Source: a virus
Strand: one strand, 5' to 3'
Virus record (IMG/VR): IMGVR_UViG_3300037258_000144
Coordinates: 1 to 22,885 of that record
DNA length: 22,885 nt
A program made the position numbers and the translations under genes. Shown here piece by piece: positions 1 through 22,885 of the stretch. The notes beneath the pieces were generated by a model that ran no database searches, was not told the origin of the DNA, and saw only the letters and a program-made list of their open reading frames with translations. The first letter of the stretch is position 1. The number at the start of each line of letters is the position of its first letter.

Positions 1-1
1 C

Positions 2-571
2 GTCATGCGCGCACTCTGGATTTACTATCCGCAGGATTCCAGGGCCGCAGCAACCGACGACGCCTACATGTGGGGAAGCTCGATCCTGGTTGCGCCGGTG
101 ATCGAGAAAGGGGCCATGCAGCGAAAGACCTATCTGCCACAAGGACAATGGTGGGACTTCTGGACTCACGCCAGGATTGACGGCGGAAAGGACGCGGTGC
201 GGGATGTGGACCTCGAGACCCTGCCTCTCTACGTCAAGGCAGGCTCAATTCTGCCGATTGGGCCTGTCAAACAATATGCCGATCAATATGCAGATCAAGA
301 AGCCGCTGAGCCGCTCACGCTGAGGGCGTACCCAGGTGCCGATGGGAACTTCAGCCTTTACGAGGACGATGGAATTAGCTACGGCTACGAGCACGGGGGG
401 TTCACAAGACTTGAATGCGCGTGGAACGACAGGTCTCGGACACTCTCCCTCAAGATAATCGCGGCTCAGAAAAAGCCGGAGGTCTCCCGGCAACTTGTGA
501 TCGAGGTAGTCGGCATGACCGGCAATAAAACAGTCACTCTGGACGAGCGCCCGCTCGCCGTCAAGTTCTGA
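2..571 (+). CDS. GH31 alpha-glucosidase family protein, C-terminal part
   Basis: The reading frame is open to the left window edge, so only the last 190 or so residues are visible; the catalytic barrel lies outside. What remains matches the C-terminal beta-sandwich region of glycoside hydrolase family 31: MWGSSILVAPV near residue 22, YLPQGQWWDFWT near 43, LPLYVKAGSILPIGP near 73, then a final sandwich domain with SLYEDDG. The family hydrolyses alpha-glycosidic bonds (alpha-glucosidase, alpha-xylosidase and others); substrate cannot be told from this piece. The ATG at position 5 is internal to the frame, not the true start. The gene runs rightward and converges on the ATP-grasp gene, with a hairpin between them. 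It is ordinary host chromosome and marks the prophage flank. Family call is firm; subfamily unknown. Confidence 0.9.
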   Translation, partial: VMRALWIYYPQDSRAAATDDAYMWGSSILVAPVIEKGAMQRKTYLPQGQWWDFWTHARIDGGKDAVRDVDLETLPLYVKAGSILPIGPVKQYADQYADQEAAEPLTLRAYPGADGNFSLYEDDGISYGYEHGGFTRLECAWNDRSRTLSLKIIAAQKKPEVSRQLVIEVVGMTGNKTVTLDERPLAVKF

Positions 572-595
572 ATCAGATTTTGCGAGGGGAGGCGT

Positions 596-618
596 GCTGC
601 GTTCCGCAGCTTCTCTTT
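596..618 (+). terminator. Intrinsic terminator after the GH31 gene
   Basis: A perfect 6-bp stem, GCTGCG (596-601) with CGCAGC (605-610), closes a 3-nt loop TTC and is followed by the T-rich TTCTCTTT. It begins 24 bp after the GH31 stop and just before the end of the convergent ATP-grasp gene. The short stem and interrupted T tract make it a modest terminator. Confidence 0.45.
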
Positions 619-621
619 GAA

Positions 622-1665
622 TTACATTGAGCGTGCGCGGGCCAGTTCCACGATCTTTTCGATCATGTCTGCGTATGAGTAGCTGGCTTTCTTGGCTGCC
701 ATGGTGAACTCGGCGGCGCTGGCGAGCCATGGGTTGGGGTTCGCTTCGATGACGTAGACCTCGCCTTTCTCGTTCAACCGCATATCAATGCGGCCGTAGT
801 CGCGCAGCTTGAGGGCCCGATAGGCGGCGAGCGCGGTGTCCCGAAGGTTTTTTGCGATCTCCTCGTCGAGGTCTTCAACCGGCGCGGATTTTGTCACTTT
901 GTAGGCCTCGGTCTCGTAATCGAACTTCACGTCCTGGCCGGCGATCCGCGGGGTTCCTTTGGGAAGCTTGGAAAGGTCGAGTTCAATAAGGGGCAGCACC
1001 TCGGCATTATCGTTGCCCAGAATAGAGGCGTAGATTTCGCGGCCTTCAATGTACTCCTCAATGAGCGCCGGGCTGTCGAATTCCTCGTGAATGTAGTCGA
1101 TGCGTTCCATAAGCTCTTTCACGCTTTCGACGACGGAGCCGTTGTCGATGCCGATAGACCCGTCTTCGGAGACAGGCTTCACGATCAGCGGAAACTTGAT
1201 ATCGTGCGAGTGATCGGTGCGGCCTTTGTAGGACGTTGCGAAGTCAGGGGTATTTATCTTGTGGAAGTCGAAAATCTTTTTTGCGATCGACTTGTCCTGC
1301 GCAAGATAGAGCGCCTGCGGGTCGCTGCCGGTATATGGAATGTCCAGCAGCTCCAGATAGGCGGCGATGTTCTTGTCCATCCTGTCGTCGCCGGCGTAAG
1401 ACTCTGTGAGGTTGAAGACGAGGTCGGCGCCGGACCTTGCAAGCGCAAGCAGCGATTGATTCTTGCCGTCGAGGACATGATAGGAAGGTTCATGCCCAAG
1501 CTTTGTCAATGCCTCGAAGATCTCTTCGCGGTCGTGCAGCGGATCTTTTTTCTTCTTTGGACGCTTGCCGCTCTTACCGCGCGGCGCCTTCACCGGCTCC
1601 GGCTCAGGCTCAGGCGGGCCCTCTTCCCAGACGTCGTGCAATATCGTTACTTTCAGGTTTGCCAT
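622..1665 (-). CDS. ATP-grasp ligase, D-Ala-D-Ala ligase-like
   Basis: A 347-residue cytosolic ATP-grasp protein. Seen in the sequence: an N-terminal strand (residues 4-14), then an unusual Pro/Glu- and Lys-rich low-complexity insert (about 15-42), a pre-ATP-grasp domain with DLVFNLTES (81-89) and the AQDKSIAKKIF helix (122-132), ATP-binding segment FPLIVKPVSEDGSIGI (158-172), LIEEYIEGREIY (201-212), and the metal-binding end DMRL...YVIEANPNPW (294-313). These parts match D-Ala-D-Ala ligase-type ATP-grasp enzymes, which join a carboxylate to an amine through an acyl-phosphate. The substrate is not evident: the insert and divergent C-terminus argue against a plain housekeeping Ddl. ATG start with GAGG five bases upstream. 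It is the second gene of an operon, 62 bp after the metallopeptidase, which suggests a joint function. Superfamily call strong, reaction unknown. Confidence 0.85.
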   Translation of the reverse strand: MANLKVTILHDVWEEGPPEPEPEPVKAPRGKSGKRPKKKKDPLHDREEIFEALTKLGHEPSYHVLDGKNQSLLALARSGADLVFNLTESYAGDDRMDKNIAAYLELLDIPYTGSDPQALYLAQDKSIAKKIFDFHKINTPDFATSYKGRTDHSHDIKFPLIVKPVSEDGSIGIDNGSVVESVKELMERIDYIHEEFDSPALIEEYIEGREIYASILGNDNAEVLPLIELDLSKLPKGTPRIAGQDVKFDYETEAYKVTKSAPVEDLDEEIAKNLRDTALAAYRALKLRDYGRIDMRLNEKGEVYVIEANPNPWLASAAEFTMAAKKASYSYADMIEKIVELARARSM

Positions 1666-1727
1666 GATGCCTCTACGCCTTTTCGGTTTGACTCACATCC
1701 GCAGCCGATGGCGATGTGAAACGCCAA

Positions 1728-2741
1728 TCACGGCAGAATGAACTTGCCCCGAGTGATGTAGTTCATCGCCAGAGCTGTCGCGTATACAGCGACCTCGGTC
1801 AAATAGTCTCTTTCACATTTTATGTCCGCACGCAGGCCGAAGTCGCTGACTTTTGCTTCAATGGCTTCCACCAGCTTCTTCACCAGCGGGCGCTGAACGC
1901 CGGTCCAGTAATTCACTTTGTCGACGAGAATCTTGCGGTTCTCGCGAAGAAGATCGACCGCGGGACGAACATCGTTCCTGCGATGCTTCGATACGTTGAA
2001 GATGTCCCGCAGATCAGCGTCGAGTGGAAGCTCGCCGGGAGTAAGCTGCTGATCGAGCGCCCGCTGATAGAACTCGCCGACCGTCACATCCATTTCGTCG
2101 ACGGTAATATCGGTATCGCCGTGCGCGACTACCGGGTCGGCGCCGCCGAGCTTGTGGCCTGTGCGATCCATGTAGAGCAGCTTCTTCATCGCGCCCCATC
2201 CTTTGTACCGCTTGCGCCAGTTGGAGCGAGGTGTCAGCCAGACCGCGAAGGTTTCAGCGAAGTCCTCATCGGGATGTTTTTGTGCGTACCAGCCTTCCAT
2301 GTGCCGTACGAACTGGCGCGAGAACGGAACCGGTTTGTAGCTATCCCGGTAAGGCCGCCGGAACGGTCCGAAGAGGCTGCGCCACTCTTCCGTTTTATAC
2401 AGAGCGTAAGCGTAGTTGAAGGCGTGGCCGGCCTCGTGGCGCATGTACATCATGATCTGCCGCGCGTCTTCAATGTCGTTCATCTCCGATTCAAGCCGCT
2501 GCAATTTCGGATCGGCCAGATAGAACGGAATTCCGATGACGGGCTCCATGTTGGGGCATCCCCACTCATCGGTGAGGTAGCACTTAGGGCGGAACCTATT
2601 GAGCTTCTTGGCATCCAGCTCTTTGTAGAGTTGCTGAACGAAGCGTTCAAGGGGAGAGCCTTCCAGCTTCAGGCCGAGCTGCTGAATTGGTTTGGATAGG
2701 ATCTCCTGGACCTCAACCGATGTTTTTTCGAAGTTGGCCAC
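1728..2741 (-). CDS. Putative zinc metallopeptidase (HEAGH)
   Basis: A 337-residue protein with no signal peptide or membrane segment seen, so probably cytosolic. The zinc signature is clear: MRHEAGHAFNY puts H102, E103 and H106 in an HExxH motif, and HPDEDFAETFAVW (156-168) supplies a likely third ligand, E163, about 57 residues later, as in gluzincin-type peptidases. The N-terminus (1-60) and a long helical C-terminus are not recognised. It starts at GTG (2741). It is the first gene of a probable two-gene operon with the ATP-grasp protein downstream. Together they resemble peptide- or cell-wall-related modification pairs, but the substrate is unknown and this is inference. An equally long frame on the opposite strand is a codon-bias shadow. 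Confidence 0.75.
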   Translation of the reverse strand: MANFEKTSVEVQEILSKPIQQLGLKLEGSPLERFVQQLYKELDAKKLNRFRPKCYLTDEWGCPNMEPVIGIPFYLADPKLQRLESEMNDIEDARQIMMYMRHEAGHAFNYAYALYKTEEWRSLFGPFRRPYRDSYKPVPFSRQFVRHMEGWYAQKHPDEDFAETFAVWLTPRSNWRKRYKGWGAMKKLLYMDRTGHKLGGADPVVAHGDTDITVDEMDVTVGEFYQRALDQQLTPGELPLDADLRDIFNVSKHRRNDVRPAVDLLRENRKILVDKVNYWTGVQRPLVKKLVEAIEAKVSDFGLRADIKCERDYLTEVAVYATALAMNYITRGKFILP

Positions 2742-2915
2742 AGATGGTCAAAGCGTAGCACAGGGAAGGTGCAGTTCGATTGGATGCCAGTTGCCTTCCG
2801 GAGGACAATGTGGCAGTGTCCGAAAGAGGCCCGGTCAGTCTATAACAATAATATTTTCAGTTAGTTGAGTGGTTGAGATGCGATGTTCCCGGGGAAAGTG
2901 AAGTGACGGAAAGGA

Positions 2916-2992
2916 TGGTGGCAAGGGACGGGATTGAACCGCCGACGCCAGCCTTTCGAGGGCCGCGGACCACACCACTGCGCTATCGCTCA
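2916..2992 (-). pseudogene. Degenerate tRNA-Phe copy (pseudo-tRNA)
   Basis: A full-length copy of the neighbouring tRNA-Phe, offset by 124 bp in the same direction. A 26-nt block (2924-2949 against 3048-3073) covering the T arm is identical, the CCA end is kept, and the D-loop and anticodon stem remain alignable. The 5' acceptor strand reads TGAGCGA and cannot pair with the 3' strand CCTTGCC, the D arm carries two extra bases, and the anticodon loop is CTCGAAA rather than CTGAAAA. It would not fold as a functional tRNA. The most likely origin is tandem duplication and decay; a remnant of an older integration event is possible. Confidence 0.7.
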
Positions 2993-3039
2993 AGGGGCCG
3001 AGCGCGGCAAATGTTTTGTGCTTGGATGTTGGATGTAAG

Positions 3040-3114
3040 TGGTGGCCAGGGACGGGATTGAACCGCCGACGCCGGCCTTTTCAGGGCCGCGCTCTACCAC
3101 TGAGCTACCTGGCC
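3040..3114 (-). tRNA. tRNA-Phe (GAA)
   Basis: The minus strand gives a complete 75-nt cloverleaf: acceptor GGCCAGG pairing with CCTGGCC, TA, D arm GCTC-AGTGGTAGA-GC, anticodon stem CGGCC/GGCCG around loop CTGAAAA (anticodon GAA, phenylalanine), T arm with TTCAATC, discriminator A and an encoded CCA. The pairing is perfect in the acceptor and anticodon stems. It lies between the host operon and the prophage, with a promoter candidate about 100 bp upstream and a decayed copy downstream. Confidence 0.95.
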
Positions 3115-3214
3115 TCAGTGCAGACTTTGAGTTGCAACTACCTGCGCGGGTCCCGGCGGAGCCGGAAAGAAGGATGGTCTTGATCCACGGACAGTGCTCT
3201 GCAACAACCTGAAT

Positions 3215-3243
3215 AGTATACCAAGTTCTCTTGACGCGACCAA
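3215..3243 (-). promoter_or_regulatory. Sigma70-type promoter candidate for tRNA-Phe
   Basis: On the minus strand a -10 element TATACT (3215-3220, five of six consensus bases) lies exactly 17 bp from a weak -35 TTGGTC (3238-3243). Transcription from here would start near 3208 and give a leader of roughly 95 nt before the tRNA. The -35 is poor, so this rests mainly on the -10, the spacing and the position. Confidence 0.4.
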
Positions 3244-3264
3244 ACGGCAAGCGGCGCTTCCGGC

Positions 3265-3360
3265 CTTCAAACCACTCATCGAACTGGCCATTGAACCGGC
3301 CATCGAACCGGCCATTGAACCAGTCATCGAACCAGCACGTGAACGACTCCGCGAACCACT
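3265..3360. repeat. 12-bp minisatellite
   Basis: Five clear units of 12 bp, alternating CATCGAAC(C/T)GGC and CATTGAACCGGC, occupy 3277-3336. Degenerate units that keep the GAAC or AACC core flank them on both sides. In one plus-strand frame this translates as repeats of Ile-Glu-Pro-Ala type, and on the minus strand as Gly-Ser-Met-Ala type. Neither frame has a convincing start or codon pattern, so it is recorded as a DNA repeat. Confidence 0.75.
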
Positions 3361-3412
3361 CTTCGCAGACGTGAATTTCTCCGCCGCAAATGGGTAAAGA
3401 TTCAAGCAGTGT

Positions 3413-3456
3413 GGCTGCCGGATTTACGTGTCACCGGCTGCCGGATTTACGTGTCA
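3413..3456. repeat. Tandem 21-bp repeats, possible prophage terminus
   Basis: GGCTGCCGGATTTACGTGTCA occurs at 3413-3433 and again, without a mismatch, at 3436-3456, a repeat period of 23 bp. It is immediately preceded by T, so the outer edge reads TGGCTGCC, with the terminal TG expected of Mu-type and IS21-type transposon ends. The pair lies between the last tail gene and the host flank. In Mu the right end carries two adjacent transposase-binding sites of about 22 bp, so this may be the right end of a transposable prophage. An IS remnant is the main alternative. A 7-bp inverted match, GGCAGCC, occurs at 3518-3524. Confidence 0.5.
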
Positions 3457-3472
3457 TGACTCGTGACATACA

Positions 3473-3506
3473 ATTCTGGGTGGCCCTGTCATAAACCACC
3501 CAAAAT
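3473..3506 (-). terminator. Hairpin downstream of the tail operon
   Basis: An 11-bp stem with one mismatch (3473-3483 with 3496-3506) and a 12-nt loop lies 30 bp after the stop of the last tail gene. The stem has a GGGTGG/CCACCC core and A/T flanks on both sides. There is no long T tract, so it may be a weak terminator of the late transcript or a bidirectional one. Confidence 0.35.
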
Positions 3507-3535
3507 CAGGGCTAGACGGCAGCCCAATCCATCCC

Positions 3536-4843
3536 TCAAGAGAAGGTATGCCAGGAACCGCTGTGATAGCAGTACCCCTGCCAGGGAGAGGCTGTGGTAT
3601 CGAAACAAATAGCCTTATCCACGCCCGGCAGCGCGCCGCTCGGATTGGCCTTCAGAGCGACGATGAATTCGGCCCATTTCGTCGACCCGCTGAAGGTGAA
3701 TGCATAGCTCTCCGCTCCAGAGCTTCCTTGCACGTTGTAGCCACTCGCCCAAGCCGTGTTGCTCTGAAGCGCTGTGAGGTTCGTACTCACCGAGGGAGGC
3801 GGTCCACCCGACTGGACGCAAATGCCGGCAAGGATCAGATCGTCGACCTGCGTCGCCGTAAGGCTGAACGCTGTCGGGGAGGATGAATTGCCGCTCTGAG
3901 TTGCCCAAGCAACATCCGCCGTGGTGATCGTACCGCTGAACTCGGCGACGAAGGCACCCACGAGGTTCGAGCCGCCTGAAAGTGTGACCGTATTCGCGCC
4001 GGAACCGCCAGCAATCCCAACTAATAAAGTCATCCCATTGTCAAATGATTGTGTCTGGATACCCCCGACTTCGGTGTAAGAAGTGCCGACTGAATCTGTA
4101 GCTCCGGTGGGTGTGCCAATTTGCGCTTTACCTATAACAACAAGTAAGTTACCGGCAACAACCGGATTAGTGAATGTCGCCGTCGCACCCGTTGTAGTTG
4201 AAGCGGATTGAACCAAGGCAGGAACCAGCACGCCGCCTGTAGTGTTCGGATCGCCCGAATTGAGTGTGACAGTACCACTGGCAGTGGGCGCTATCCACGA
4301 CGGCGCGGCGCTGGAACCATTCGACTGAAGAAGGTAGCCGGCGGTCCCCGGAGCTAAACGAGTAGCTGTTCCGCCCACTCCAGCGCTGATCATATCGCCC
4401 AGTGTGGTCATTGGATTTGAAAAGCCGCCTGAGCTCGATCCGCCGCCGATAATCTGGAAGTTTGTTCCGTCATAGCAGAGGGGGACGATCTGGCCAGCGG
4501 ACATTTCACCGCCGCTGAGAGCGCTCGATCCCTGCTTTTTGATCGGGATAGCGGAGCCGCCGTTGACGGCTATTGTCGATGCGCCAGTGTTTGCATTCGC
4601 AATCTTTACAAGGATGCATATCCCTGCAATCAGCGTCGCGATCGCACTGAAGGCCACGGCGTAGGCATTGGCGGAGCCGGTGTCGGCTGCGTAGCTCATA
4701 TGAGGCGTGACCACATCCCAGCTTGTGCCGTTGTCATAGAGCACCGCGCCGATGTCTGTGGCAAAGAAGATGCGCCCAGCTTCGCCGGCCGCTGGCAGCG
4801 CAGAATAATTTCCCTCAACGATGACTGAGCTTAAAGTGATCAT
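3536..4843 (-). CDS. Tail-fibre / receptor-binding-type protein
   Basis: A 435-residue protein and the last gene of the tail cluster. The N-terminal RIFFATDIGAVLYDNGTSWDV (24-44) is typical of short tail-fibre proteins that describe a shaft attached to the tail tip. The middle is rich in Gly, Ser, Thr and Ala. Residues about 210-390 form a likely beta-sandwich (GNLLVVIGKAQIGTPTGATDS, then DNGMTLLVGIAGGSGANTV and FVAEFSGT), and the protein ends with an aromatic Cys-containing tip. No enzyme motif is seen. ATG start with AGGAGAA upstream, seven bases after the preceding stop. The role in host recognition is inferred from position and composition. Confidence 0.65.
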   Translation of the reverse strand: MITLSSVIVEGNYSALPAAGEAGRIFFATDIGAVLYDNGTSWDVVTPHMSYAADTGSANAYAVAFSAIATLIAGICILVKIANANTGASTIAVNGGSAIPIKKQGSSALSGGEMSAGQIVPLCYDGTNFQIIGGGSSSGGFSNPMTTLGDMISAGVGGTATRLAPGTAGYLLQSNGSSAAPSWIAPTASGTVTLNSGDPNTTGGVLVPALVQSASTTTGATATFTNPVVAGNLLVVIGKAQIGTPTGATDSVGTSYTEVGGIQTQSFDNGMTLLVGIAGGSGANTVTLSGGSNLVGAFVAEFSGTITTADVAWATQSGNSSSPTAFSLTATQVDDLILAGICVQSGGPPPSVSTNLTALQSNTAWASGYNVQGSSGAESYAFTFSGSTKWAEFIVALKANPSGALPGVDKAICFDTTASPWQGYCYHSGSWHTFS

Positions 4844-6035: not shown

Positions 6036-7943
6036 CTAAAATGGTGTGCCGCCTTGTTCTGCACCGGAGAAGAATGCGGCTTGCCCCGATGCCAACGGAA
6101 TTACGGTAAATTCTGAGCTATTGCCTGGCTCACTGCCCGGCACACTTGGCCATCCGGCCTGCGTTGGGTCGCTGGTGTCGTAGAAGACTGTCGGGTTATA
6201 AGGCCCAAACGGAAACTCGATCTCTCCGCTTGTGGGGTCCGGCGTGAGTTGGATGGAGGCGCCAACGCCTTTTGCCTGGACGCCAGGTAGCGTTTTGATC
6301 AGACCGTCAAGAACCTCGTAATCGCCGGCATATTGAAAGTTTAAGGTCGCATCGATAGTGACGCGATCACCGAGCTGGATGGCCGCGGCAAAATTGCCAG
6401 CCGCGTCACGCGCAAAGAATGAAGTTTTCACTTTCGCAACGGCCGGCGTTAAATATGGTGTTTGATCGAGTCCCAGCAGCCGATCGCGTTCATAGGTTGT
6501 CAAGCGGCTGGCCTGGTCCCACGTCGTCGTCGAGAACTCAAGCTGCTGCTTTACCTTGTTGCGCTGGCGCGCTATGCCGATCCCAAGCGCGCCTTTGGCA
6601 AGCATGTTCTGTTTGTGCCAGAACTCCGGTGATCGTTCTTTGAAGCGCGAGTAGAGGAGGCCGATCGCGCCTCCTGAGCCAACAGATCTCGGATAATTCC
6701 ATCCTTGAGATATGAGAGTAAAAGTTGTGGGACTGACCTGCTCAGGCGTGCCTGGGTTGATCACGTCTGGAACTGAGTAGATCTGCCAATTCGTGTCGTA
6801 AGGCGTGTTCGTTCCACCGACTGCGATGCGGTCGCCGGCGAGGAATGGATGCGGATCTTCCGTCGTTACTTCGAGACCCACGATCGAAGCGATCACCGAA
6901 CAGGCCGGGACAAGCACATCGCGGAAATTTGCGACGAAGCGGTTTGCTGTTTTATGCAGAGTCTGATCTGAGTCGTTCCACGAGCCGGGCAGCACATTAG
7001 TGCGGCTGAAAGTGAACACACTCGATCGCGGCATATCACATTTGATTGAGATTTTTCCGGCGTATTCCGAAATGAAGCCACGGCAGCACTGAAGCATCGT
7101 TTCGAGAACAGCCTGGAGCGATGTCTGCTGGCTAAATGAATAGTTTCCTTCGAAGCGGCGACGGCCGTTCGCCAAGAACTCGTCGAAGTATTGAGCAGCC
7201 GTGAAGATCGATCCCCAATCGAACCTGTTGGCCACCGCCGCAGGCAGCGCGTCGGGACCACTGGAGATATCGAGGCTGTAATCAGGAAACAGCTTTCGGC
7301 GCAGAAGGACATCAACGATATGCCATGCGGGATTAGTGGTGAACGCATAACCCGTCTGATTGCCCTGGTCGTCAAATAGCCGGCAGCGGAGACCGCGCCA
7401 AAGGCCAACAGGCGCGACGTCCGCCCACTGCGTCGGGTCTGTCTGATGATCGTTGGTCTGATATAGAACAGGCTGCTTTCGCAGGATCGAGTAATAAGCT
7501 ATGCGTGAAAAGTTGAGAGGCTGAATCGCTGGTGGGAACTGCGCCCAGAGAATGTCCACGCCCTGATCCGGACCATTCGACGAAGGCGTCAAGCCCGAGC
7601 CGATTATAGAATCGCAGCCGGTATGGAAGTCGAACACGAGATCTTGCTTCGGATAGTCCAGCGCACCATACCAACGCTGGCCAAGCCAATCGCTTTTAAC
7701 CGTCGTGTCGCCGGTCCACGCGAGCATGTCGTTAATCCAGAGCTCAATGAGACCATCCCACTCGCCATGGCCGAGGAGCCAAATTCCTACGCGCGTGTAA
7801 TCGAGCCCAGTAAGACCGGTGTTCTGCAGCGTCGTATATGCGTGACGCTTGCCGGTCGCCCACACATAGCCATAGCTCAGCGGGACCGGCTGCCCGGTCG
7901 TATCGCTGGCGCTGCTCGTCTGTGTGCTGGCCGCGTTGGGCAT
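6036..7943 (-). CDS. gpJ-like central tail hub protein
   Basis: A 635-residue tail-tip protein that matches the layout of lambda gpJ-type hubs. The segment NPAWHIVDVLLRRKLFPDYSL (about 205-225), FDWGSIFTAAQYFDEFLANG, RRFEGNYSF and LQAVLETMLQCCRGFISEYAG corresponds to the conserved hub region that forms the ring closing the tail tube. The region around 320-560 holds further hub domains (NRFVANFRD; KQNMLAKGALGIGIARQRNKV). The last 60 residues are Pro/Gly/Ser-rich and may connect to the fibre proteins. Its start overlaps the preceding stop (TAATG), which implies translational coupling. It is shorter than lambda gpJ (over 1100 residues) and lacks the long fibronectin-rich fibre, so that role probably passes to the two downstream genes. 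Confidence 0.75.
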   Translation of the reverse strand: MPNAASTQTSSASDTTGQPVPLSYGYVWATGKRHAYTTLQNTGLTGLDYTRVGIWLLGHGEWDGLIELWINDMLAWTGDTTVKSDWLGQRWYGALDYPKQDLVFDFHTGCDSIIGSGLTPSSNGPDQGVDILWAQFPPAIQPLNFSRIAYYSILRKQPVLYQTNDHQTDPTQWADVAPVGLWRGLRCRLFDDQGNQTGYAFTTNPAWHIVDVLLRRKLFPDYSLDISSGPDALPAAVANRFDWGSIFTAAQYFDEFLANGRRRFEGNYSFSQQTSLQAVLETMLQCCRGFISEYAGKISIKCDMPRSSVFTFSRTNVLPGSWNDSDQTLHKTANRFVANFRDVLVPACSVIASIVGLEVTTEDPHPFLAGDRIAVGGTNTPYDTNWQIYSVPDVINPGTPEQVSPTTFTLISQGWNYPRSVGSGGAIGLLYSRFKERSPEFWHKQNMLAKGALGIGIARQRNKVKQQLEFSTTTWDQASRLTTYERDRLLGLDQTPYLTPAVAKVKTSFFARDAAGNFAAAIQLGDRVTIDATLNFQYAGDYEVLDGLIKTLPGVQAKGVGASIQLTPDPTSGEIEFPFGPYNPTVFYDTSDPTQAGWPSVPGSEPGNSSEFTVIPLASGQAAFFSGAEQGGTPF

Positions 7944-17938: not shown

Positions 17939-19003
17939 TTAGCCTTCGATGTCGCTGGGAACCGTACCCATCGGGTAGTTCGCGCTCGATACAGCGTTCA
18001 AGATGGGGATGCCGGTTTCGATAGCCGTCACCTCAATCCCGTAGTACCAGTCGGCCGAGATCCAATCCTTCTTGGAGTCGAGATAGGGATCGGGGAACTC
18101 AAGCACACCGTAGCCGTCGACGGTATTGTCGGGACCGGGAAGCGTGCCGCCCTTGTCGTCCTGGCCGCCAGCCCACACGAAGGTCTTCGCGCAACTGACA
18201 TCCATCTGCGTGGGAGCAGCCGAGGCATAGCCAAGAAATGCGTCGTATCCCCACACCCACGACGCGACGTTCCCCTTGCTGAGCGAGATCGCGCTGGCCT
18301 GAATCACTTCGACACCGAAGACCTTGCTCAGCATCTCGTTGGTGATGATGCCGCCGGTATTGGTGAACTTGAAGCGCTCCACGATGAGCGGGTGATTGCG
18401 GACGGCGGTCGCGACGGGATCAGATAGCACCAGGGCCATCTCGCTGTCCTGAATCCCCGCCTGGCGCATAAGCCCCTTGTAGCCGTCGATGACCACGATA
18501 GGATTCGATGTGACGGTATCGGGCGTATCATCGGCCGGCGTGGTGACGTAAGAGTCCCACTGCGATCCACCGCTCAGCGTGACCCCATTCGTGAAGTTGC
18601 TGGTGTTCAGCAGAGTATTCGCAATCGCGATCTCGCGATCGAGATTGAGCTGATTCATGATCTGCTGAGTCGCCTGCTTCTTCGTGCTGAAGCCGAGCCC
18701 AAGGCCGTAAGCCTCGGTCTCGCGCGGGATGTCCGTCGAGATCGCGTGGCTTGTGCACATGTATGGCGCGACCGAATATCCGCGCCGCGTGGTGATCGGA
18801 CGATCGCCGGCCGCGCGCTGCGTGTTGCCGGGGACGCGGAAGTCGTCGCGGTTCCAGATGACGTACTGGAAAGACTGCCGCGCTACCGGAACGCGCGGTG
18901 CGAACCGCTCGCCGATTAACGCATTGTTGCGGAACTGCTTTGCGAAGTTGCTCAGCGCAACGTTCAGAGTCCCGACCGGCATTGTGCCGACAAAGCCACC
19001 CAT
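17939..19003 (-). CDS. Major capsid protein
   Basis: A 354-residue HK97-fold-type major head protein. Visible cues are NALIGERFAPRVPVARQSFQYVIW near the N-terminus, AHAISTDIPRETEAYGLG-type segment (here SHAISTDIPRETEAYGLG), then ATQQIMNQLNLDREIAIANTL, DGYKGLMRQAG, ALVLSDPVATAVRNHP and EMLSKVFGVEVIQAS near 220-240, in the order expected for the E-loop, spine helix and A-domain. No N-terminal delta domain is visible, which fits with a separate scaffold function in the protease gene upstream. The AGGAGG ribosome site eight bases before the ATG is among the best in the window, as expected for the most abundant protein. A strong hairpin follows. Confidence 0.85.
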   Translation of the reverse strand: MGGFVGTMPVGTLNVALSNFAKQFRNNALIGERFAPRVPVARQSFQYVIWNRDDFRVPGNTQRAAGDRPITTRRGYSVAPYMCTSHAISTDIPRETEAYGLGLGFSTKKQATQQIMNQLNLDREIAIANTLLNTSNFTNGVTLSGGSQWDSYVTTPADDTPDTVTSNPIVVIDGYKGLMRQAGIQDSEMALVLSDPVATAVRNHPLIVERFKFTNTGGIITNEMLSKVFGVEVIQASAISLSKGNVASWVWGYDAFLGYASAAPTQMDVSCAKTFVWAGGQDDKGGTLPGPDNTVDGYGVLEFPDPYLDSKKDWISADWYYGIEVTAIETGIPILNAVSSANYPMGTVPSDIEG

Positions 19004-19577: not shown

Positions 19578-20717
19578 CTAGACAGCGCCCGCTTGCGAAC
19601 CGCCCGGCTGCGCCAGCTCCGGATGATCGGCAATCACGCGATCGAGCGCCTCGCTGAAGGTGACGTTCTTTTCCTTTGCAAGCGCCGTGGCCTGATCGTT
19701 GAGCGCGATCGAATTCGAATCCGCCTTGACACCCTTCCCCTCGGTGAATTGAGCGGTGCCACGCTTCGGGACCGTCACAGGCGCGCCCGTAAAAGTACGG
19801 CCACCCGGAACGATCTTCGGCAGACCCTCAAGGAACAGAACAAGCGTTTCGAGTGGCGTGATGGTCTTCTTCGCGTCACCCTCGCCAAACTCGACCGTCG
19901 TAGTGACCTTCGCCAACTCCTCGAAGACCAGGCCGAGGCCCATCTTCTCGAACGCTGGCACCCAATTGCCAGAACCCTTCAAGCGATTCACGGCTTCAAT
20001 CGCGCGCTGCTTGGTCTCGCTGGTTGCGATCTTGGTTTCGCGCTCGCCGAATTTCGCAGTTTGCGCCGTGAGATCAGTCTTGAGCTGCGTGATCTCCGCC
20101 TGCAGCGGCTTCGCGGCGCTCGTGGCCGCCTCGGTTGCGATGCGCTGAACTTCCGCTTCGCTGAAGGTCTTCGAGGCGGAGCTGGAGCCGGGCATGTGTT
20201 CCTTCAGCCAGGCCATAAGCCCCTCGGCAAATGTCTTTTCGGTATTGTCCACTGTTTCCTCCTCGCCGAAATCGACCGCGGTAAACTTGCGGCCGGCGTC
20301 GTCGAAATTTAAGTTTTTGAGTCCCTTTACCTCGGGCGGCTGCGCGCCGAGGAATGCCACATGACGAAGCCCACTAATACGGCCATCGTCATCGAGATAG
20401 AAAGCGGCGGAGCGCTTTTTAAAGCGGCCAGCGAGAACAGCTTTCTCGAATGCCGGATCTACCTCTTTGAATTTCGCAAGCAGAGTGTCGCCCTGGCGCA
20501 TCAGGCGATCGGCCCAGCCGTATGCCGGCAGATCATCCTTCGGATGGCCGATACACGCGGGAGCTTCGTGGAAGCTCGGATCGTAATTGGAGATCACGCG
20601 ATCTAGGTCGGCGGAAGTAAATGATCCCTTCTCGCCGTAAGTGCCGGCGCGGAATATCTCAATCCAGCCATCGCCGAAGTCAGACTTCCCGTCAACCGTC
20701 TTTGTGATATCTGCCAC
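19578..20717 (-). CDS. Mu gpI-like head protease with scaffold region
   Basis: A 379-residue protein similar to Mu gpI-type prohead proteases. Residues 1-140 hold the conserved block: GWIEIFRAGTYGEKGSFTSA, ISNYDPSFHEAPACIGHPK, PAYGWADRLMRQGDTLLAKF, VLAGRFKKRSAAFYLDDDG and LRHVAFLGAQPPEVKGLK. H58 and S103 are candidates for the catalytic pair by analogy with other prohead proteases, which is inference. Residues about 185-245 form a predicted coiled coil and the C-terminus is polar, as in a scaffold that is cleaved away after head assembly, so one gene may supply both functions. It starts at GTG 20717, with a weak ribosome site, after a 110-bp gap. No separate scaffold gene is seen. Confidence 0.75.
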   Translation of the reverse strand: MADITKTVDGKSDFGDGWIEIFRAGTYGEKGSFTSADLDRVISNYDPSFHEAPACIGHPKDDLPAYGWADRLMRQGDTLLAKFKEVDPAFEKAVLAGRFKKRSAAFYLDDDGRISGLRHVAFLGAQPPEVKGLKNLNFDDAGRKFTAVDFGEEETVDNTEKTFAEGLMAWLKEHMPGSSSASKTFSEAEVQRIATEAATSAAKPLQAEITQLKTDLTAQTAKFGERETKIATSETKQRAIEAVNRLKGSGNWVPAFEKMGLGLVFEELAKVTTTVEFGEGDAKKTITPLETLVLFLEGLPKIVPGGRTFTGAPVTVPKRGTAQFTEGKGVKADSNSIALNDQATALAKEKNVTFSEALDRVIADHPELAQPGGSQAGAV

Positions 20718-20827: not shown

Positions 20828-21673
20828 TTACGCGGCCATCAGGCTGCGGAATTCGTTGCTTTCAAGTTCCAGTATGGTGAGCGGCTTCAGCGCAATGCGC
20901 TCCAATCCGCCTTCGCTCGCGTCTGGATCGATGTCGAGCGCCTCATCCTCTGGGATCGGAACCACTGAGCAGCGGCAATTGAAATCCCAGGGCGGATAGA
21001 TCTTACGCCATACTGGGTCGATCGCGCGCGCAATGAATCCGTCGAGCTCCGCATGACCAGGCCGCACGCGCGTATCGCCGACCGTCCAATACTGCCAGAA
21101 AGGCAGAGCGTCCAGCATGTGCGGCTCTTGCATCTGTTCGAGCCGTCCGGCCGAATAGGCTTTCTGCATGCCGGTTTGAAACGCGGTGTCTAGCGTGAAT
21201 GCGTTCAGATCCTCAACGCCAGCATCGCTCGTGAGTTTCTGAACGGCCGCGTGAAAGTCTGCGGGCGTCTCACCGTTCTTTGCAATCTCCGCCATGCGAT
21301 CGCGGATCTTGGCGATCAATCGCACATCGCTCGTGCCGGCGAGGGTGAACGCATCTTTGCGATATTGCGACGTAAGCCCATCGAAGAGCTCTCGCGTAAT
21401 CGGCGTTAGATTGCTCAGATACTTTTCCGCCGCAACGTTCGGCATGTCGAACGAAAATCCAGTCGTGATGCTCTGGTCATCGTCTTCTGCGAATCGCAAT
21501 GAGCGCGCGCCGGTCGCGAGCGGCAACGCTTTGCCCGTCTTGTTCTGGGCGTGGCGCAATATCTGCATGCGCCCAAGCATGTCGGCCGAGGCCAGGCGCC
21601 GCGCCAGCAGTTCGCCTAGCTGGCGCTGCACACCGTTATCGCGCGGCGTGCCGAAATGGAAGCCGAGCTTCAC
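20828..21673 (-). CDS. MuF-type head morphogenesis protein
   Basis: A 281-residue minor head protein of the Mu gpF / SPP1 gp7 family. The C-terminal signature is complete: TAFQTGMQKAYSAGRLEQM (185-203), then FWQYWTVGDTRVRPGHAELDG, DPVWRKIYPPWDFNCRCSVVPI. The N-terminal part is helical. These proteins associate with the portal and enter with the DNA in some phages. It starts at GTG one base after the portal stop, with AGGAAG upstream, so the two are coupled. The length is usual for the short form of the family and shows no C-terminal toxin domain. Confidence 0.9.
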   Translation of the reverse strand: MKLGFHFGTPRDNGVQRQLGELLARRLASADMLGRMQILRHAQNKTGKALPLATGARSLRFAEDDDQSITTGFSFDMPNVAAEKYLSNLTPITRELFDGLTSQYRKDAFTLAGTSDVRLIAKIRDRMAEIAKNGETPADFHAAVQKLTSDAGVEDLNAFTLDTAFQTGMQKAYSAGRLEQMQEPHMLDALPFWQYWTVGDTRVRPGHAELDGFIARAIDPVWRKIYPPWDFNCRCSVVPIPEDEALDIDPDASEGGLERIALKPLTILELESNEFRSLMAA

Positions 21674-21674
21674 G

Positions 21675-22885
21675 CTACTTCCTCATGACAGGAGTGACGG
21701 CGTCCGCGATCTCCTGGATGCGCTGCTTAAAGAGGCCGGTGGATTGAGTCTGTAGATCCTTAAATACTTTGTCGAACTCTTCCATCTCTTGATGTGCCTG
21801 AGCCTCTGGAGATACTTCAGCAAAGGTTGCACGCGCCTGGTCCGCGATCGCCACTTGCGGGGCTGTGATATTCGGCTGCAGGATGTCATCCGGATTCTCG
21901 CCATTCTCGCCGGCCGCCAAGGGCACGTCGTAGCGCTCCGTGATGTATCCAACGGTGAATTTCTTGCCCATACGCTGCAGGCCCGCGTCGACAGCGAGAC
22001 GGTTGACCAGGTCTTCGCCTTCTTCGATCTCGATGGTCCACTTCGGCATCGGAGCATCCGGTCCATAGTTCCACAGAACCAACGGTCGGATGAGCTGCCG
22101 ATTCACGACTGTCATCACGGCTTTCGACAAAGCGACCGAGCGCCGCTGCAGCGTATCAGCGTGCGTTTCGCCCTGAGCCTTTGATCCAGCTCCGTCCTCA
22201 TTGCCGAAGCTGGTCAGCGTCTCGCCGAGCACGCGGCGGATGATGGAGTACTGCATTGCTTTGAAGAGATGCTCGTGAACATCTGGACTCAAACTTCGCG
22301 CCGTCTTCAGCAGCTCTGTCTCCACCCTCAATCCTTGCGGCACTGCGATTGCGACGTTATCGACAATCGCCTGCGCAATGTCTACGGCTTGCTGGCGCTC
22401 GGCCTGGTTATCCGGATCGTTGTAATACACCATCGCGGTGCCAGGTCCCTTTTCCGCATACTGCATCCAGAGTCGCTGGACGTTGCGCTTAAACCAACTC
22501 GGCCAGAAAAGACTTTTAAGCAACGGCCGTCCCATGCGATTGCGCGCACGCTTGCGATAGCTCGTAATGATGAACTTATGCTCGGGCACTTCCTGGCCCT
22601 CGGCCGCCCACGGTTGATCGATGAACTGCATCGGCCCGACCTGCGGATAATAACGGTTGCCAAACAAGAACAACTCTTGCGGACAATCATCGATCTCTAA
22701 TAGAGAAGCTTGGCCGGCGCTCACATCGAAGATCATCTCCTGCACGCTGAACCCGTAGCCTGGCGCATCCAGAATGCAGTCCAGTACCGAGTCGAAGTTA
22801 ACGTTCTCCAGTTGTTGTTCGATGAATTCCTTGATGTCGACCGCGAGCGAATCATTGTCGTTGGCCGGCGCAACCGCGCGCGGAC
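21675..22885 (-). CDS. Mu gp29-like portal protein (DUF935), 5' end outside window
   Basis: The frame is open to the right window edge, so only about 403 C-terminal residues are seen. Parts that fit the Mu gp29/DUF935 portal family: DCILDAPGYGFSVQEMIF, the LFWPSWFKRNVQRLWMQYAEKGPG helix region, DNVAIAVPQGLRVETELLKTA, and VNRQLIRPLVLWNYGPDAPMPKW, followed by TVGYITERYDVPLAAGENGENP. Twelve copies would form the DNA channel at one head vertex. GTG 22745 is an internal codon, not the start, because the frame continues 46 codons further upstream. Terminase should lie just outside the window. Confidence 0.9.
   Translation of the reverse strand, partial: PRAVAPANDNDSLAVDIKEFIEQQLENVNFDSVLDCILDAPGYGFSVQEMIFDVSAGQASLLEIDDCPQELFLFGNRYYPQVGPMQFIDQPWAAEGQEVPEHKFIITSYRKRARNRMGRPLLKSLFWPSWFKRNVQRLWMQYAEKGPGTAMVYYNDPDNQAERQQAVDIAQAIVDNVAIAVPQGLRVETELLKTARSLSPDVHEHLFKAMQYSIIRRVLGETLTSFGNEDGAGSKAQGETHADTLQRRSVALSKAVMTVVNRQLIRPLVLWNYGPDAPMPKWTIEIEEGEDLVNRLAVDAGLQRMGKKFTVGYITERYDVPLAAGENGENPDDILQPNITAPQVAIADQARATFAEVSPEAQAHQEMEEFDKVFKDLQTQSTGLFKQRIQEIADAVTPVMRK

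Follow-up and report, generated by a model that had tools for sequence, protein, structure and literature searches.

The window analyzed here, which is the complete 22,885-base IMG/VR record IMGVR_UViG_3300037258_000144, very probably contains the attR-like right terminus of a Mu-type transposable prophage inserted in an Acidobacteriaceae host. According to its sequence and placement, a tandem 21-bp repeat at this end almost certainly represents two transposase-binding sites, arranged as they are in phage Mu. The record stops before the left end of the phage, and this left end, the transposase gene and the second copy of the target sequence all lie outside its 22,885 bases. A transposable-phage right end had been proposed in the first-pass annotation, and the proposal is supported by relatives of the phage, which carry the same tandem repeat, TGTG/CACA termini and 5-bp target duplications and encode a DDE transposase along with a MuB-like protein.

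The repeat unit, GGCTGCCGGATTTACGTGTCA, occurs as two identical 21-bp copies at 3413-3433 and 3436-3456, spaced 23 bp start to start, as originally described. These were the only two matches in the whole window when up to three mismatches were allowed, and none was obtained in 100 dinucleotide shuffles. The repeat also lies where it had been placed, i.e., between the last tail gene and host DNA, the latter with a tRNA-Phe gene and a D-Ala-ligase-like gene. The outer edge does begin with TG, as had been claimed, but its location had to be moved from 3412 to 3410 (TGTGG), two bases further out, because TGTGGCTGCC at 3410 is kept in the related right ends and the flanking sequences diverge just beyond it. 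A third, inverted copy at 3463-3482 had been overlooked; it is weak in the window and clear in most relatives. Further inside the phage, the Mu-like nature of the head genes was confirmed by matches to Portal_Mu, Phage_Mu_F and Phage_Mu_Gp36 and by a Mu I-like protease (Table 1). Since the record holds half a phage, which a contig break or a decayed element may explain, the feature could also be a right end left by a transposable prophage that has decayed and lost its mobility. We consider such a defective remnant improbable, however, given the perfect mutual preservation of R1 and R2 and the open reading frames of the head and tail genes scanned.

Table 1. Features of the prophage right end and its surroundings in the window
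Feature	Position	Strand	Basis
Host (Acidobacteriaceae) chromosome flank	1..3409	.	D-Ala-ligase-like ORF and DNA alignment
Terminal TG, right-end prophage boundary; phage runs rightward from here	3410..3411	+	TGTGGCTGCC kept in relatives, flanks diverge
R1, putative transposase-binding site	3412..3433	+	Shares its 21 bp with R2; homologous site present in relatives
R2, putative transposase-binding site, direct, 23-bp period	3435..3456	+	21 bp identical to R1; homologous site in relatives
R3, putative inverted third site (GTGACATACAATTCTGGGTG)	3463..3482	-	13/20 to inverted R1, p=0.016
Last tail gene, transcription toward right end	3536..4843	-	Tail PHROG matches phrog_19068/phrog_4900
Tail fibre J-like protein	6036..7943	-	phrog_31, 4.6e-17
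Major capsid protein, marker for finding relatives	17939..19003	-	phrog_1005, 3e-45; 50-68% identity to relatives
Head maturation protease (Mu I-like)	19578..20717	-	phrog_976, 6.8e-69
Mu F-like minor head protein	20828..21673	-	PF04233, 5.2e-17
Mu-type portal protein, cut by record end	21675..22883	-	PF06074, 4.7e-62

Scans of viral contigs with the exact double repeat and with 20-mers yielded no relatives, and blastn against plasmids and phages returned no match. As the end sites diverge too fast for such sequence scans, relatives were sought through the capsid protein. This search recovered one viral contig at 50% identity, then three Acidobacteriaceae metagenome-assembled genome (MAG) contigs at 56-68%, and further viral contigs; homologues of the capsid gene were present in 11 of 398 genomes of the family (E<=1e-20). 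The first relative, the viral contig with 50% capsid identity, carries two 22-bp repeats with a 23-bp period just beyond its last tail gene, adjoining a non-phage (phosphatase-like) reading frame on the outer side. Read inward, these repeats correspond to TGGCTGCCGGAATTACGTGTCG, with 0 to 2 mismatches to a degenerate form of the window repeat. The same right-end plan was found in six genomes of the collection (G002, G003, G005, G127, G055, and G399) and in viral contigs L099, L100, and L102. Near many of the ends lies TTTTCATAG/CTATGAAAA, which is inconsistently placed and absent from the window.

A search that required inverted TG/CA ends and identical 5-bp flanks revealed four complete Acidobacteriaceae prophages of 41.3-42.7 kb that share the capsid gene. 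All have 5'-TGTG...CACA-3' ends and exact 5-bp target duplications, namely TCGTC in G002 (42,534 bp), TTGGA in G003 (41,525 bp), AGAGA in G127 (42,743 bp), and CTTTT in G055 (41,344 bp). The duplication is exactly 5 bp, and the sixth flank base differs in all four. AGCAG (3405-3409), the last five host bases of the window, is the predicted target duplication of the window phage. A comparison with uninterrupted relatives, which the first-pass annotation had recommended, turned up an empty site for G002, whose joined flanks with one target copy align contiguously to G421, G361, and G307 at 76-77%. The four complete relatives occupy four different, unrelated loci (n=4), and the G127 and G055 insertions adjoin short interspersed repeats. 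In the window, 12-bp tandem repeats (GGCCATYGAACC) occupy 3262-3333, within host DNA and some 75 bp beyond the phage end. The repeats beside these three insertions recall the BIME hotspots of a Pseudomonas aeruginosa transposable phage (PMC5977238). A uniform scan for target duplications and end geometry found no paired ends in G391, G148, G353, G262, or G208, although G353 and G391 carry the right-end-like TGTAGCTGCCGGAATT. In addition, one MAG contig (G004:C312, L030) begins exactly at a candidate right-end TG, at position 1, as would be expected of a phage inserted at several sites across the population.

The relatives encode a 733-759-residue protein that matches the phrog_310 transposase (1.1e-79) as well as rve and, above the cut-off, Mu-transpos_C (PF09299). 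The adjacent gene matches phrog_296, a DNA transposition protein, i.e., a MuB-like ATPase (9.4e-20). Both genes point to the left end, opposite to the head and tail genes, whose transcription runs to the right end. Best matches of the transposase among named phages do not exceed 28% identity, and none of the solved structures matched it by sequence; profile comparison with the MuA, RcapMu, and B3 transposases gave 97.8% with an E value of 7.7e-13. Candidate catalytic residues are D335, D406, and E462, which are invariant among three relatives. The ends of IS21 elements carry tandem repeats and their IstA and IstB proteins resemble MuA and MuB, and an IS21-type remnant at the prophage edge had been named in the first-pass annotation as a possible lookalike. 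We nevertheless regard it as very unlikely. Membership in IS21 would imply an IstA-type transposase in a multicopy element of a few kb, and NCBIfam gave sub-cut-off matches to IS481 and IS3 for the relatives' transposases, with no IS21 model among them. Nor is the repeat scattered as part of an insertion sequence: among the matches listed in the 398 family genomes at up to three mismatches, all were single imperfect copies except for a tandem pair at the G002 prophage end. In the relatives, an IS21 origin is refuted by right ends that pair with left ends 41-43 kb away, at phage length and with 5-bp duplications.

On the host side, the D-Ala-ligase-like ORF at 622-1665 shows up to 91% identity to genomes in the same genus group as the Acidobacteriaceae MAG G002, and positions 595-2801 share 80-85% DNA identity with four genomes of that group. 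The left part of the window is, judging from these matches, host DNA from the family Acidobacteriaceae, and the setting is a soil or peat chromosome. Synteny breaks at 2801-2900, the D-Ala-ligase/peptidase genes and the tRNA-Phe being neighbours in the window and not in the relatives compared. No empty site was obtained for the window phage, as host homology of the flank ends at 3243 and the record includes a single flank. A complete tRNA-Phe gene is located at 3040-3114, adjoined by a degenerate second copy at 2916-2990 (92% over 52 bp), and this tandem arrangement recurs at several other Acidobacteriaceae loci. Insertion by a tyrosine integrase at this tRNA pair, less than 0.5 kb from the phage edge, with the tandem repeat being unrelated (e.g., an operator), is scarcely credible, since some 300 bp separate the edge at 3410 from the 5' end of a complete tRNA, the tandem arrangement also exists in genomes that lack this phage at the corresponding place, the relatives are inserted at unrelated loci and bear 5-bp duplications, and no integrase was detected among the proteins scanned (a subset of the ORFs).

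Returning to the transposable-phage reading, the geometry of the ends was determined by counting site positions in nucleotides from the terminus. The right ends have two direct sites of 22-23 bp, R1 from nt 6 and R2 from nt 28-29. An inverted R3 at nt 53-54 was significant in G001, G003, G005, G127, and G399 (p<=0.0015 against at least one of R1 and R2), where, as in L099 and L100, it matched at 14-18 of 20 positions. It was weaker in the window and in G002 (p=0.048), and was not found in G055 or G004 by the same comparison; in G004, R1 and R2 are themselves poorly alike. In 10 distinct left ends, L1 is terminal and L2 starts at nt 112 (111 in G002). L2 was clear in four unselected left ends and marginal in G127, and viral contigs supplied five more distinct left ends, each with L2 at nt 112; left ends beyond the four with a target duplication were placed by similarity, and some were found with a pattern that included the TTTTCCACA box. 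When the sequence of Mu itself was subjected to the same comparison, its sites fell at nt 7, 112, and 152 (L1, L2, and L3) and at nt 7, 29, and 55 (R1, R2, and inverted R3). Each end of Mu is reported to carry three MuA sites, with strand transfer staggered by 5 bp (PMC3362531). As read from these alignments, the ends follow Mu's site plan although the site sequence is unrelated. The outer half-site differs from phage to phage (TGTCA, TGTCG, TGCAC, GACAC, and GCCCC) and is common to the sites within a single phage, a variation that may reflect co-evolution with the transposase DNA-binding domain.

The left ends share an additional motif, TTTTCCACA, which matches the DnaA-box form TTWTNCACA. 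It is invariant at nt 83-92, in the L1-L2 spacer, in the left ends of G002, G003, G127, G055, and G004 (L026, L027, L063, L066, and L032), all five of which were found without using the motif. The remaining spacer has a mean pairwise identity of about 51%, and a 9-column run arose in 0 of 20,000 column shuffles. The motif is absent from the left 150 bp of Mu, RcapMu, and B3. It is preceded by a partly conserved GGATTGACGCGGG, and a reverse copy is present near nt 233-245 in three of the five left ends. In Mu, the left-end complex is shaped by HU. A precedent for involvement of the host initiator comes from Tn5, whose ends contain a DnaA site (PMC3347997). We hold it doubtful, though conceivable, that the left ends of these phages recruit DnaA through TTTTCCACA; if so, the protein might give the left-end complex its shape or link transposition to the initiation of replication. 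By eye, nt 140-370 of the left ends of G055, G003, G127, and G002 also contain a 13-15-bp repeat with a phage-specific core (e.g., AATCCAACGGAAGTG, AATCCAACCCAACTG, and AATCCAAGTGCCA), present about four times in each phage and possibly an operator or transposition-enhancer array.

We propose that the MuA-like DDE transposase of the phage would bind R1, R2, and inverted R3 on the right and L1 and L2 on the left, and would synapse the two ends. It would then nick beside the CA-terminated 3' ends, which it would join to target DNA 5 bp apart, hence a 5-bp duplication, the target probably being delivered by the MuB-like ATPase. The window phage presumably behaves as its relatives do and, like them, would replicate by transposition. 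The relatives add Acidobacteriaceae transposable phages whose ends are exactly defined. In full-text searches of open-licence papers no publication paired transposable phages with Acidobacteria, nor did those read on Mu-like prophages and Acidobacteria describe such a phage, which is not proof of novelty. The relatives keep the Mu site spacing while the site sequence has changed phage by phage, and together within each phage. This contrast separates the needs of Mu transpososome geometry from what the transposase DNA-binding domain reads, and it supplies natural site-transposase pairs. Defined ends would also permit mini-transposon tools for a host group poor in genetic tools, and the conserved DnaA-box-like motif offers a concrete lead.

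Among known systems, Mu-type transposable phages (saltoviruses) are matched by the TG..CA termini, seen as TGTGG at the right end of the window and at both ends in four relatives, and by the 5-bp duplication and the DDE transposase with its MuB-like ATPase in the relatives. The putative R1, R2, inverted R3, L1, and L2 likewise reproduce the several-sites-per-end arrangement of Escherichia phage Mu, with direct R1 and R2, an R3 of opposite orientation near nt 55, and L2 at nt 112; the portal, F, gp36 and protease genes and the Mu-transpos_C transposase are also shared. Unlike these phages, Mu has site sequences without similarity to theirs, early genes that run the opposite way, no TTTTCCACA in its L1-L2 spacer and an L3 at nt 152, a site not established in the Acidobacteriaceae phages. 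Pseudomonas phage B3 has the same divergent early and late halves, its transposase and ATPase genes facing the left end and those for head and tail the right end, but it makes a 6-bp target duplication (PMC8705779), whereas the 5-bp duplication of the Acidobacteriaceae relatives sets them apart from the B3 group. Rhodobacter phage RcapMu carries annotated attR1 and attR2, two tandem 22-24-bp sites at its extreme right end, and a related capsid (27% identity), yet its transposase gene points rightward and the R3 and L2 geometry is undetectable in it by the same test. Finally, the transposable prophages of Leptospira resemble those described here in occurring outside Proteobacteria and Firmicutes, and differ in their 6-bp duplication and, in some, TA-TA ends (PMC8705779).
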